Source: Methanopyrus sp. SNP6 (GTDB lineage: Archaea; JAADCQ01; Methanopyri; Methanopyrales; Methanopyraceae). From it: a stretch of DNA of 64,000 bases. This document shows positions 51,440 to 56,968 of this stretch, piece by piece. Made by a program: the position numbers and the translations under genes. A model generated the notes under the pieces. The model was not told the origin of the DNA. It worked only from the letters and a program-made list of their open reading frames with translations, and searched no databases. The stretch spans positions 915,619 through 979,618 of the forward strand of contig NZ_CP019436.1 of the NCBI RefSeq assembly GCF_002201895.1. Reading direction: 5' to 3'. Within the stretch, counting starts at the first letter, position 1. Each line of letters begins with the position of its first letter.

Positions 51440-52453
51440 GTGAGAGAGACCGTCGAGAAGATCGTCAAGGAGCGGGTTTTACCGGAGGTATCCAAGGTAC
51501 GTCGCGGTTGGGTCGAAGTCGGTAGGGGAGCGGACGGGACTCCGACGATGCGGGTGGACGAAATAGCAGAGCGGGAGTTCCTCCGCGGGTTAGAAGAAGA
51601 AGGCGTGGACGCGAGGGTAATCAGCGAGGAATCCGGTGAGATGCGTGTGGGTGAGGCCCCCGAGGTAACGCTGGTTCTAGATCCGCTCGACGGCTCACAC
51701 AATGCCAGTCGCGGTCTTCCGTTCTACTGTGTTTCAGTCGGTATCGCCGATCCGGAGGCCGAGACCCTAGACGACGTGGAAGAAGGCTTGGTGATTTCGG
51801 AACTGCTGACCTTCGGCCCAGGTGACGTCGAAGAAAAGCCGGTAGTGGAACGCCCGCTGGTTTCGGCCTACTACTACGGATCGGACCGGATGCCGGTCGA
51901 GTTCTCTCGAGGTCGTTTCAAGCTCCGTTGCTTGGGGGCAGTAGCCTTGGAGCTGGCTTTAGTAGGGAAAGGAGCTCTGGACGGGTTCGTGGACGTTCGA
52001 GGCAGTCTGCGCCCCACGGACGTAGCGGGAGCGTTCGGAGCTGCGCGAGGTGAACTAGCATTCATCTTCGCGCGGAGCGGTCGGGAATTGGATCCTTCTG
52101 AGATACCGTTACGACCGGACTTTCGCTTCGAGCTAGCGACGGCACGGAGCGAAGATGAGGCTCGGGAGCTCTTCGAGGCCCTGAAGGAGGACGTGGGTGT
52201 CCGCGTGGTGCAGTGTCTGTTCGGCAAGCATCCCGAGGGACTCTCGGAACACACTCTATGCGGTAAGCTAGGCGAGGAATGCTGCGAGCTGGCTCACGCC
52301 GTAGGTAAGGGAGAGGGTTATGGAGAGGAACTCGCGGACGTGTTCGCCCTCGTCATGAACCTCGCGAATGAGCTCGACGTGGACGTTTTGACGGAACTGC
52401 GGCGTAAGTTTCGGAGGGTGTTCGAATGTTCCGACCGCAGATCGTCGGTGTGA
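51440..52453 (+). CDS. Inositol monophosphatase-like protein with C-terminal MazG-like domain
   Basis: A fusion of two domains in 337 residues. Residues 1-235 are an IMPase/FBPase phosphatase with E63-E64, D81-P-L-D84-G-S and PTDVAGA (in place of the usual WDxAAG). Residues 245-330 hold a MazG/PRA-PH-like helical domain with KLGEECCELAHAV (near 276-288) and EELADVFALVMNLANEL, the ExxEE...ExxD metal pattern. GTG at 51440. NAD kinase overlaps by 28 bases. The first domain could be a fructose bisphosphatase, IMPase or NADP phosphatase; the second probably cleaves a nucleotide diphosphate. Confidence 0.8.
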   Translation: MRETVEKIVKERVLPEVSKVRRGWVEVGRGADGTPTMRVDEIAEREFLRGLEEEGVDARVISEESGEMRVGEAPEVTLVLDPLDGSHNASRGLPFYCVSVGIADPEAETLDDVEEGLVISELLTFGPGDVEEKPVVERPLVSAYYYGSDRMPVEFSRGRFKLRCLGAVALELALVGKGALDGFVDVRGSLRPTDVAGAFGAARGELAFIFARSGRELDPSEIPLRPDFRFELATARSEDEARELFEALKEDVGVRVVQCLFGKHPEGLSEHTLCGKLGEECCELAHAVGKGEGYGEELADVFALVMNLANELDVDVLTELRRKFRRVFECSDRRSSV

Positions 52454-53256: not shown

Positions 53257-53408
53257 TGCTACGCGGCACTATCAAGGAGATCGGTGAGGCGATCTTCCGA
53301 GCGTTTCTAGTGGGTCCGCTGCCTAAGCTTCTAGCACGAGTGTGTTTCATCCTCTGGGTCCGCCTCTACCGCGATGGTCGCGAATGGAGGAGATCACATC
53401 GAGGGTAG
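53256..53408 (+). CDS. Possible small basic protein, 50 aa
   Basis: ATG at 53256 shares its A with the nadK stop (TGATG), a pattern common here for coupled genes. The product is basic, with a hydrophobic amphipathic middle (FRAFLVGPLPKLLARVCFIL) and an Arg-rich end. It overlaps the convergent histone gene by 62 bases. No family recognised; may be spurious. Confidence 0.3.
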   Translation: MLRGTIKEIGEAIFRAFLVGPLPKLLARVCFILWVRLYRDGREWRRSHRG

Positions 53409-53622
53409 CGGCCGCTAGCTCGACATCTTCCGCCTTCACGGTCTTCCTGCCCGCGTGACGGGCCGCGAGAACCGACAACTTCGCCAGTGCTAGGCTGAGG
53501 GATTCGATCACTCGATAGTACTCTTTTTTGGCACTCATCCTGACGCCGAGGACTCCGTCGGCGGATCGAGCCGACTTCTTGAGTATCTCCTCCAGAACGT
53601 TTGTCGGGAGATCGGGGTCCAA
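53347..53622 (-). CDS. Histone-fold protein, 91 aa
   Basis: One histone fold is visible: an initial helix, a long central helix over YYRVIESLSLALAKLSVLAA and the canonical loop HAGRKTVKAEDVELAAATL of archaeal histones. It has a longer N-terminal region (about 30 residues) with GVLGVRMSAKKEY and a short GRGG-rich tail. The start is TTG 53622. Methanopyrus is known for a 154-residue double-fold histone (recalled), so this is a different, single-fold protein. DNA-binding or CENP-S-like roles are possible. Confidence 0.8.
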   Translation of the reverse strand: MDPDLPTNVLEEILKKSARSADGVLGVRMSAKKEYYRVIESLSLALAKLSVLAARHAGRKTVKAEDVELAAATLDVISSIRDHRGRGGPRG

Positions 53623-53660
53623 GCTTTCCCCTCCCCTGGGGGGTACCCGGGGGGACTCAG

Positions 53661-54059
53661 TTGATCACCTACGTTCTCGATACATCAGCATTCATCAAGG
53701 GTGTGCCTCCGGAACTCCTGGACGGCCCCGCTTACACGGTTCCAGAGGTCATCGAGGAGCTTAAGGATGATCTTTCCCGCATGAGGTATGAGGTCGCGTC
53801 GGTGAGAGTCAAGGAACCTGAAGACTGGGCGATTCGCCGCGCGCGCAGGCGCGCTAAGGTCACGGGTGACCTGCCTCGGTTGTCAAAGACGGATCTGAAG
53901 GTTCTCGCGCTCGCTATCGAGTTGATGGAGGAGCAGGACGTAGTCTTGGTTAGCTCCGATTACAGCGTCCAGAACGTGGCGCTTACACTGGGTATTCGGG
54001 TGTACGGGCCCGTCCACGGCGAGGTGGACGAGGTAATCGGGCCGGGGGGACGGCGTTGA
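53661..54059 (+). CDS. Nob1-like PIN-domain endonuclease
   Basis: A PIN-domain nuclease of 132 residues with the acidic set expected: LDTSAFIKG at the start, EVIEELKDD, KTDLKVLALA and SSDYSVQNVALTLG. That last motif is typical of Nob1, which cleaves pre-16S rRNA at its 3' end. A C-terminal zinc ribbon, usual in Nob1, is absent, and the chain ends after GPVHGEVDEVIG. TTG 53661 has a ccgggggg tract upstream. It is coupled to the fusion protein that follows (TTGA). Confidence 0.82.
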   Translation: MITYVLDTSAFIKGVPPELLDGPAYTVPEVIEELKDDLSRMRYEVASVRVKEPEDWAIRRARRRAKVTGDLPRLSKTDLKVLALAIELMEEQDVVLVSSDYSVQNVALTLGIRVYGPVHGEVDEVIGPGGRR

Positions 54060-54910
54060 AGACAGTCGGTGTAGCAACGGTCGTGACGGTGTCGGGGTTG
54101 ACGGGATCGAAGCGCGTGGCAGCTCGTGTGGATACCGGTGCCGAGAACGACTCCATCGACCTAAAGTTGGCGTCGGAAATAGGCGCCGGCCCCGTCATTG
54201 GGGTGAAGAAGGTCCGCTCCGCCTCCGCTTCGCGGTTACGCTCTGAGCGTCGGCCCGTGGTTCACGTCACTTTGGAGCTGGCCGGGAGATGCATATCGTC
54301 GGAGGCCACGCTGGCGGACCGGCGAGATATGCGGTACCCGATGATTGTCGGGCGTAAAACGCTACGTCAGGCTGGGGTCACGGTCGACCCGTCCCGTGAG
54401 GAGAAACCGGAGGGAGACGAAGTCGATCCACGTCGTATAGTCGCTACCTTGAAGCTCCACAAGAGACTTCTGAAGACCGTCAGAAAGAAACGTGCGGTGA
54501 CCCCTGCCATCTTGGCACTTCAGCACGGAGGAGCGTGGTCGTACCGTGACGGTGACGTATCGTCGGTGGCCGTTCCTGTTCGGAAATTGTCGAACGGCGT
54601 AGTGCACGAAGATCTCTACTTGCTTCTCAACCCCGAGATCGAGCGCGCCGAGGGTACGTTAACTAGGCTCGAGAAGTGTGGTCGTGAGAAAGTTCGACGT
54701 GTCGCGAAGCGTCCACGGCGGCTTGAAGTACGACACGATGGTGGCGCTATCATCCGCGTCGATCCGAAGCATAAACGCATCCGCGTTCGGGAGTTAGACC
54801 CGGGAACGCTCCAACTTGAGGGCATTCCCGCCGCCAACCTTCACCACGAGCTCTCTCACCTTACGGGGAACGACCTGGGTCCCAGCGTGCTGGAGTTCGA
54901 GGTCGAGTGA
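54056..54910 (+). CDS. Fusion of retropepsin-like protease domain and peptide-deformylase-like domain
   Basis: Two domains in 284 residues. Residues 1-120 match the retropepsin-like (RimK-associated, ATP-dependent zinc protease) family: catalytic D26-T-G-A29, then RYPMIVGRKTLRQAG. Residues 145-284 resemble peptide deformylase: LLLNPEIERAEG, Cys208 in EKCG, AKRPRRLEVRH, and a zinc motif H264-E-L-S-H268 followed by LTGN. Cys plus HExxH is the deformylase metal triad. Archaea normally lack deformylase. It follows the PIN gene and overlaps hemC by 4 bases. Function inferred only. Confidence 0.72.
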   Translation: MKTVGVATVVTVSGLTGSKRVAARVDTGAENDSIDLKLASEIGAGPVIGVKKVRSASASRLRSERRPVVHVTLELAGRCISSEATLADRRDMRYPMIVGRKTLRQAGVTVDPSREEKPEGDEVDPRRIVATLKLHKRLLKTVRKKRAVTPAILALQHGGAWSYRDGDVSSVAVPVRKLSNGVVHEDLYLLLNPEIERAEGTLTRLEKCGREKVRRVAKRPRRLEVRHDGGAIIRVDPKHKRIRVRELDPGTLQLEGIPAANLHHELSHLTGNDLGPSVLEFEVE

Positions 54911-55824
54911 AGGGGGACGCCATCACAGTGTCGGAAACGATTCGGGTCGCCACCCGATCCAGCCGTCTGGCGATCATCCAGACCAGGGAGGTAATCGAGC
55001 TGTTGGAGCTGGAATCTCCGCATGACATCGAGGTTGAGATCGTGAAGACAAAGTCGCGTGGAGACGTCGTTCGGGATCGACCCCTTCACAAACTGGGTGA
55101 GAAGGGCGTGTTCGTGAAAGAGGTTGACAAGCTAGTACTCGAAGGTAAGGCCGACATCGCCGTTCACAGCGCCAAAGACGTCCCCTCCGTCGTAGATTAT
55201 CCCGTGGACGTGGCGGCTGTGCCTCCCCGGAGGGATCCCCGAGAATGCCTGGTATCGCGACACGGCGGACTCAAAGAACTTCCACGGGGAGCTACCGTGG
55301 GGACTAGCAGTCCCAGACGGCGTGCGCAGATTCTCCTAGAAAGACCAGATTTGAAGGTGGAACCGATGCGTGGGAACGTGGATACCAGGGTTTCCAAGGT
55401 GAGGCGTGGGGAATACGACGCCGCCGTTCTCGCCAAGGTCGGGCTGGACCGACTCGGAATAACATCCGCGGTTTCTGAGGTGTACGACCCGGAAGAGTTC
55501 GTGCCGCCGGCGGGCCAAGGAGCCTTGATGGTCACCTGCCGCAAGGACGACGATCGCGTCAAACGCCTTCTGGAAGTCGTGGACGACGAGAAGAGTCGGG
55601 TGGAAGTCGAGACGGAGAAAGCCGTCGTAAGGGAGCTCGGAGTGAGCTGCTCGGAGCCTGTAGGAGTCCACGTGCGAGCTCGCAATGGTGGCTACGTGAG
55701 GTTGGTGTTAGGGGTGTTCGAAGAAGAGGGCTCTTGCGGCCACGTGCTCAAGGTACGGGGCTCGCCTGAGGACGTCGTCCGTGAGGCAGTGTCTCATGCC
55801 AGGGAGGTGATATCGGATGGGTGA
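54907..55824 (+). CDS. hemC: Hydroxymethylbilane synthase (porphobilinogen deaminase)
   Basis: Makes hydroxymethylbilane from four porphobilinogens for corrinoid, F430 and siroheme synthesis. Seen: VATRSSRLAIIQTREV, VKTKSRGD, VHSAKDVPS and the dipyrromethane-binding Cys in LGVSCSEPVGVHV. The last is a slight variant of the usual LGGGC. GTG at 54907 overlaps the fusion gene as GTGA; GTG 54928 is possible. 305 residues. Confidence 0.95.
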   Translation: MKGDAITVSETIRVATRSSRLAIIQTREVIELLELESPHDIEVEIVKTKSRGDVVRDRPLHKLGEKGVFVKEVDKLVLEGKADIAVHSAKDVPSVVDYPVDVAAVPPRRDPRECLVSRHGGLKELPRGATVGTSSPRRRAQILLERPDLKVEPMRGNVDTRVSKVRRGEYDAAVLAKVGLDRLGITSAVSEVYDPEEFVPPAGQGALMVTCRKDDDRVKRLLEVVDDEKSRVEVETEKAVVRELGVSCSEPVGVHVRARNGGYVRLVLGVFEEEGSCGHVLKVRGSPEDVVREAVSHAREVISDG

Positions 55825-56608
55825 GCTGTACCTGGTCGGAGGTGGCCTCTCCGACGTTCGGGATCTCACGTTGCGAGCCCTTGAAGTGTTAGCTAACGTG
55901 GAATTGGTGCTGGTCGATACCTATACCAGCGTGTACGACGTAAGCGAAGGTGACCTGAAACGGTTGCTCAAAGAGTTCGGAGGTGATCCTGAAATACGTA
56001 TGTGTTCGCGGCGGGACCTGGAGGAGCGCTTCTTCGATCTGTGTGATGGGTACGATCGCGTCGCCCTGCTCTCCCCGGGCGACCCGATGGCGGCTACCAC
56101 TCACGTGGCGCTGGTGGTCGAAGCCGCCGACCATGGATGGGACGTTGAGATAATCAACGGTGTGTCGGTGTTCACCGCGGCGCCGTCCAAGTCGGGGCTG
56201 GAGATGTACCGGTTCGGACGTACCGCCACGATTCCGTTGAAAGTACGCTCCGTGTACCCCTACGATGTGCTCGAATCGAACCGGCGGGCCGGTTTACACA
56301 CCCTATTCTTGCTGGAAGTTGCTGAAGATGGTGAGTTCGTCTCTGTCGCCGACGCCGCTCGTTACCTTTTGGAAATTGAAAGGGAAGAAGGTCGCGGAGT
56401 ACTCGATCCCTCGGATCTCGCGATCGCCGTAGTAAGGCTCGGGTTCGAGGACGAGTTGGTGGCTCGGGGAACCCTCGAAGAACTCTCCGACTGGGAGCCC
56501 AATGAACCTCCGCAAGCTCTAATACTGCCCGCCTCCCGACTCCGTGAAACGGAACACGAATACATCAGTCGTGTCCTACCACACATTCGAGATGTGCGTG
56601 GGGTCTAG
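55817..56608 (+). CDS. dphB: Diphthine synthase
   Basis: Methylates the modified histidine of elongation factor 2 with S-adenosylmethionine. The 263-residue protein begins LYLVGGGLSDVRDLTLRALE and shows DTYTS, SPGDPMAATTH and INGVSVFTAAPSKSGLEMYRF split by the cofactor loop; all are Dph5/DphB signatures. ATG at 55817 overlaps hemC by 8 bases. Together with eIF5A modification genes nearby this makes two translation-factor modification pathways in the region. Confidence 0.95.
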   Translation: MGELYLVGGGLSDVRDLTLRALEVLANVELVLVDTYTSVYDVSEGDLKRLLKEFGGDPEIRMCSRRDLEERFFDLCDGYDRVALLSPGDPMAATTHVALVVEAADHGWDVEIINGVSVFTAAPSKSGLEMYRFGRTATIPLKVRSVYPYDVLESNRRAGLHTLFLLEVAEDGEFVSVADAARYLLEIEREEGRGVLDPSDLAIAVVRLGFEDELVARGTLEELSDWEPNEPPQALILPASRLRETEHEYISRVLPHIRDVRGV

Positions 56609-56611
56609 CCT

Positions 56612-56968
56612 TTGGGTGAGGAGACTGTCGGTGACTATCACGTCGTACTCGAGGCCGCATGGATCGTGTACAACGTCGACGACGAGGACGACGCCGTCAA
56701 CATTGCCATCGCCGAAGCGGGCAAACGTTTGAACCGGCATGGTCTCGATTACGTGGACATCGACGTCGGGTTTTACGAGTGCCCTGAATGTGGTAATGAG
56801 ATCGAAGGTGTGTGGATAGTGGCGGGTACAGCCCTCGTCCGACTGATTCTATCGATGCGAGTGTTCAACGCGGAAAGTGAAGAACACGCCGTTCGCATCG
56901 CTAAGTACGAGATCGGTCAAGCGTTGGAAGATGTACCCTTAGGTGTCGTCGAAGTTACTCCGCTATGA
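56612..56968 (+). CDS. UPF0212/DUF555 conserved archaeal protein
   Basis: A 118-residue protein with the family's [17 protein letters not shown] motif, which suggests a zinc or metal site, and repeated [17 protein letters not shown]-type helix-strand units. TTG at 56612, three bases after diphthine synthase, so it may share that transcript. The function of the family is not known to me. Confidence 0.85.

Follow-up and report, generated by a model that had tools for sequence, protein, structure and literature searches.

Peptide deformylases (PDFs) are tied to translation that starts with formyl-methionine (fMet) and are an antibiotic target, and Methanopyrus has no known route for adding formyl groups to new proteins. 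A gene of Methanopyrus sp. SNP6 in which a retropepsin-like protease is joined to a deformylase-like domain raises the question of what such a domain might act on. An earlier note, made from the letters of this DNA, had described the fusion in an archaeon, archaea generally lacking deformylase, and had proposed a substrate other than fMet, possibly a ribosomal or translation protein. The features of the gene and its operon are collected in Table 1; the window is the whole stretch of 64,000 nucleotides that was analysed.

Table 1. Positions in the window of the fusion gene, its domains and motifs, and the neighbouring genes
Feature	Residues	Positions	Strand	Basis or remark
PIN_6 (Nob1-like PIN) gene, upstream		53601..54059	+	4-base overlap; in all Methanopyri
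Fusion gene, retropepsin-like + PDF-like		54056..54910	+	284 aa, TTG start
RimB/RloA-type retropepsin domain	1-115	54056..54400	+	PF05618, NCBIfam RloA3, PDB 9g59, Foldseek
DTGA, catalytic Asp motif	26-29	54131..54142	+	invariant Asp/Gly/Ala, alignment A6
RYPMIVGR block, second retropepsin motif	93-100	54332..54355	+	sequence, alignment A6
PDF-fold domain	128-284	54437..54907	+	AlphaFold2, VIA, Foldseek, hhalign
GGAWS (family-invariant GGxWS), near the position of PDF motif 1, GxGxAAxQ	158-162	54527..54541	+	family alignment
NPEI, conserved NP strand as in PDF	192-195	54629..54640	+	alignment
LEKCG (PDF: EGCLS), predicted metal ligand Cys208	205-209	54668..54682	+	alignment, hhalign
HELSH, predicted ligands His264/His268, predicted general base Glu265	264-268	54845..54859	+	alignment, hhalign
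hemC (porphobilinogen deaminase), downstream		54907..55824	+	4-base overlap; operon member
dph5, diphthine synthase		55817..56608	+	operon member
DUF555 protein		56612..56968	+	operon member

The fusion gene and its operon

The open reading frame and all the motifs that had been named for it (DTGA, RYPMIVGR, NPEI, Cys208, and HELSH followed directly by LTG) were recovered, and the protein consists of a retropepsin domain and a PDF-fold domain. Orthologues with both domains were found in five of five genomes of the phylum (its own and four relatives, 45-93% identity); the G002 copy is cut off by the contig end ahead of the HExxH. Between the two closest orthologues, dN/dS is ∼0.15 for the whole fusion and lower in the retropepsin (0.07) than in the PDF-like domain (0.22), and both domains are under purifying selection. 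Since two-domain orthologues occur in all five of these genomes and selection is purifying, the reading frame is genuine and not a chance one. The TTG start is supported by an ATG at the equivalent position in two orthologues and by the overlaps with both flanking genes. Five full-length models of the fusion had mean pLDDT values of 87-89 and matched RloA and PDF structures. The idea that the two domains are one duplicated fold was ruled out (hhalign probability 0.1%).

The gene order NAD kinase - PIN - fusion - hemC - dph5 - DUF555 is kept in the Methanopyri wherever sequence covers it. Two further reading frames lie nearby. A 91-residue histone-fold ORF on the opposite strand (window 53347-53622) scores just under the Pfam CBFD_NFYB_HMF cut-off and is conserved in three relatives, and an inositol-monophosphatase-like ORF just ahead of the NAD kinase (window 51440-52453) carries an additional C-terminal part that, by eye, resembles a nucleotide pyrophosphohydrolase.

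The retropepsin domain

The N-terminal stretch passed the cut-off of Pfam PF05618 (50.3 bits against 27). It matched NCBIfam RloA3 with an E-value of 3.9e-9, far under the equivalog cut-off, the RimB/RloA equivalog models as a set giving 25.7-36.4 bits against cut-offs of 200-280. PDB entry 9g59 was matched at E 5.3e-5, and the first Foldseek matches of the full-length model include RloA2, RloA, a Legionella DUF785 protein and Ddi1. The DT/SG motif and the retropepsin fold were found in the sequence, the alignment and the predicted model. Both RimB and RloA belong to the retropepsin-like proteases and cleave sequences rich in glutamate, and RloA has been demonstrated to be dimeric (PMC11957791, PMC12239564); bacterial RimB acts on RpsF (PMC11957791). 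The Methanopyrus domain shares with them (PF05618; PDB 9g58, 9g59) the DTG motif, the YPxxxGR block and the fold, but differs in its fusion to a PDF-like domain and in its sub-equivalog scores. By analogy with this family, it would be a RimB/RloA-type aspartic protease that dimerises to form an Asp26/Asp26' site.

Other archaea have this domain as a short protein of its own, and a RimK-like gene lies within the 1.5 kb flank at 16 of the 19 archaeal loci of this retropepsin clade. These RimK-adjacent proteins are 26-43% identical to the Methanopyrus domain. An AstE/AspA-type metal amidohydrolase accompanies the Methanosarcinaceae retropepsin, much as the PDF-like domain does here, but the partners of the standalone proteins are RimK and AstE/AspA rather than a PDF-like domain. 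At four Methanosarcinaceae loci (L007, L008, L010, L011) the order retropepsin - RimK - AstE/AspA-type hydrolase is kept. Unlike the RimB system, the genome of the window has no RimK (PF08443) over the Pfam cut-off, its best match scoring 18.9 against 21 bits; relatives G003 and G004 have marginal partial matches of 21-22 bits.

The C-terminal domain compared with peptide deformylases

AlphaFold2 predicted the C-terminal domain (alignment A1) with a pLDDT of 87.8 and a pTM of 0.82. Structural comparison of this model by VIA gave PDFs for 50 of 50 among the matches listed (Z 9.2-10.7, rmsd 3.0-4.8, 113-133 residues aligned), and Foldseek returned PDFs at a probability of ∼1 and little else. Profile-profile alignment (hhalign) against seven PDFs gave E 1.5e-5 and a probability of 80%, with EKC placed on EGC and HExxH on HExxH, against E-values of 0.17 and 0.44 for two controls. 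The predicted model thus has the PDF fold, and the structural match to deformylase that the earlier note had set as a check was obtained, bearing out its reading of the gene as a fusion of these two domain types. The curated PDF models, however, were not reached: the domain scored 14.2 bits against the PF01327 cut-off of 22.8 and 11.6 bits against the TIGR00079 cut-off of 103.95, the best standalone relatives scoring 22.1 and 18.7 bits, respectively.

The GGxWS, the Lys-Cys of LEKCG, an Arg six residues past the Cys and the HExxH are invariant in the family rows that cover them, and the Cys and HExxH, comprising the predicted ligands and the Glu, are also invariant where the domain stands alone. 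As in PDF (Def, PF01327, TIGR00079), the Cys precedes the HExxH and an NP strand is present, and by eye the R-x4-RP of the domain (R214, R219-P220) falls near two PDF arginines, at similar distances past the Cys. The 'Rp-rich strand' of the earlier note corresponds to no defined motif, this R-x4-RP being the feature nearest to it. The conserved Lys beside the Cys, together with the conserved Arg, suggests a positive pocket.

Other features set the domain apart from PDF. No GxGxAAxQ was found, its place being taken by GGxWS, and of EGCLS just the Glu and Cys are kept in LEKCG. Since the hhalign alignment is unreliable over motif 1, the loss of its Gln rests on the family alignment, which has no conserved Gln. 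In PDF this Gln holds the formyl oxygen, and with its absence formyl hydrolysis may be lost. From Cys208 to His264, the first His of HELSH, there are 56 residues, whereas a canonical def has 42 (C91 and H133 at locus L109), so that ∼14 residues are inserted between Cys and HExxH, with order and fold still as in PDF. The spacing is therefore not that of PDF, contrary to the earlier note, and neither could the second domain be upheld as a standard PDF, given the two altered motifs and the curated cut-offs. Judged from the predicted model and the alignments, the C-terminal domain has the PDF fold and PDF metal ligands, yet fails the motif and cut-off tests of PDF. It represents a divergent PDF-like family, probably of metal amidohydrolases that act on something other than fMet.

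Pfam PF05618 (Zn_protease) matches this protein twice, in the retropepsin stretch (profile positions 66-133) and, more strongly, in the PDF-like stretch (7-138), and it matches standalone PDF-like proteins as well (window fusion; L061, L064, L067, L069). On these profile matches the model appears as a conflated one, holding two unrelated domains in overlapping columns. Because it matches both, the PDF-like family is probably mislabelled, hidden under the name 'ATP-dependent zinc protease', and methanogen proteins so labelled may be PDF-like.

Distribution and candidate substrates

The PDF-like domain was found in 23 of 394 genomes in a sample of archaea only (24 profile matches minus that of G167, E 0.006, which was probably due to chance). 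The genomes with a profile match presumably include those of Methanopyrus kandleri, Methanothermobacter thermautotrophicus, Methanothermus fervidus, Methanosalsum and Methanohalobium. Whilst the fusion occurs in all five Methanopyri, the domain stands alone in other methanogens, namely Methanothermobacter, Methanothermus and some Methanosarcinaceae. A scan of genome contigs gave one relative only, no viral, phage or plasmid relatives were found, and a literature search of open-licence papers found no report of archaeal PDF-like proteins. In genome G192 a 256-residue variant (L070 5631-6401) has a different N-terminal part of ∼80 residues ahead of the PDF-like domain, with neither a DTG nor a Pfam match.

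True PDF (PF01327) is scarce in archaea (3 of 297 genomes) and was not found over the cut-off in the five Methanopyri. Met-tRNA formyltransferase (PF02911) was absent from 12 of 12 domain-bearing genomes tested and was found in 10 named controls; the lack of this enzyme in the host lineages is a further difference from PDF. The description of the host as an archaeon lacking deformylase is borne out, and since neither canonical PDF nor formyltransferase was found in the Methanopyri, a substrate other than fMet is probable, as had been proposed.

We favour, at about an even chance, a bifunctional hydrolase in which a retropepsin-type protease is combined with a PDF-fold metal hydrolase, the latter most likely acting on a small N-acyl amide of a substrate that is not an fMet-protein. 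From fold and conservation, the C-terminal domain would hold a single metal, liganded by Cys208, His264 and His268. Glu265 would be the general base, and the deformylase mechanism of a metal-bound water activated by this Glu would be kept. The amide would, by analogy, be an N-formyl one, and the remodelled pocket, with GGxWS for GxGxAAxQ and LEKCG for EGCLS, would set a different specificity.

Neighbouring genes point in several directions. In Methanothermobacter and Methanothermus the PDF-like gene is the next one downstream of that for cyclic 2,3-diphosphoglycerate synthetase (L061 5935-7873; L062, L063, L066, L071-L073), and the M. fervidus neighbour matches structures of this synthetase, 8ork and 8oru, over its full length. 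A functional tie was rejected, the synthetase being present in Thermococcus-like and other genomes that lack the domain, and the domain in genomes that lack the synthetase. In Methanosalsum and Methanohalobium the standalone gene adjoins fdhD (L064 5018-6502, L065 5960-7294); FdhD was not found in Methanopyri, which rules out a general link.

The fdhD neighbours bear on a possibility that we regard as unlikely, namely that the domain is a true deformylase, which would remove formyl groups formed independently of formyltransferase, as when formyl-methanofuran or formyl-tetrahydromethanopterin formylates protein amines chemically, or that it hydrolyses N-formylmethanofuran itself. Ftr is present in 8 of 9 domain-bearing genera and in 67 of all 252 genera (Fisher p 1.3e-4, phylogeny ignored), and this co-occurrence, together with the fdhD neighbours in two genera, slightly favours formyl-carrier chemistry. 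Most Ftr-bearing archaea, however, have no PDF-like domain, Ftr and Mcr are both missing from G192, which bears it, such genome distributions are confounded by descent, and the Gln of motif 1 and, in Methanopyri, FdhD are missing.

A role in translation is improbable to a similar degree. Here the retropepsin would trim a protein of the ribosome or of translation, in the way that RimB trims RpsF, and an additional blocking group on that protein would be taken off by the PDF-like domain. The RimK neighbours of the retropepsin clade, the glutamate-rich substrates of RimB and RloA, and a PDF-like domain next to Pth2 in G217 fit such a role, which the Nob1-like PIN and dph5 neighbours in Methanopyrus slightly favour. 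Yet the operon includes hemC too, the genome of the window has no RimK over the cut-off, and the standalone PDF-like genes mostly adjoin the synthetase or fdhD instead. The translation substrate suggested in the earlier note is thus weakly supported by the operon and by RimB, and not by the standalone genes.

It is a poor prospect that the PDF-like domain has lost catalysis and now provides the protease with a module for binding or dimerisation, since its ligands and general base are invariant even where it stands alone, although the loss of the motif 1 Gln and its faster evolution relative to the retropepsin would fit.

A far more specific proposal is a long shot: the domain may found an archaeal line of deformylase-fold enzymes whose targets are the N-formyl or N-acyl groups on C1-carrier or glutamyl-tailed metabolites or proteins of methanogens. 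In Methanopyrus both domains may then act on one substrate, for example one that, like formyl-methanofuran, has a formylated amine as well as a tail of glutamate. More generally, a PDF-like family whose active site is seemingly complete, in lineages without formyltransferase, would mean either a second chemistry for this fold or an unrecognised formyl or acyl modification in methanogens.
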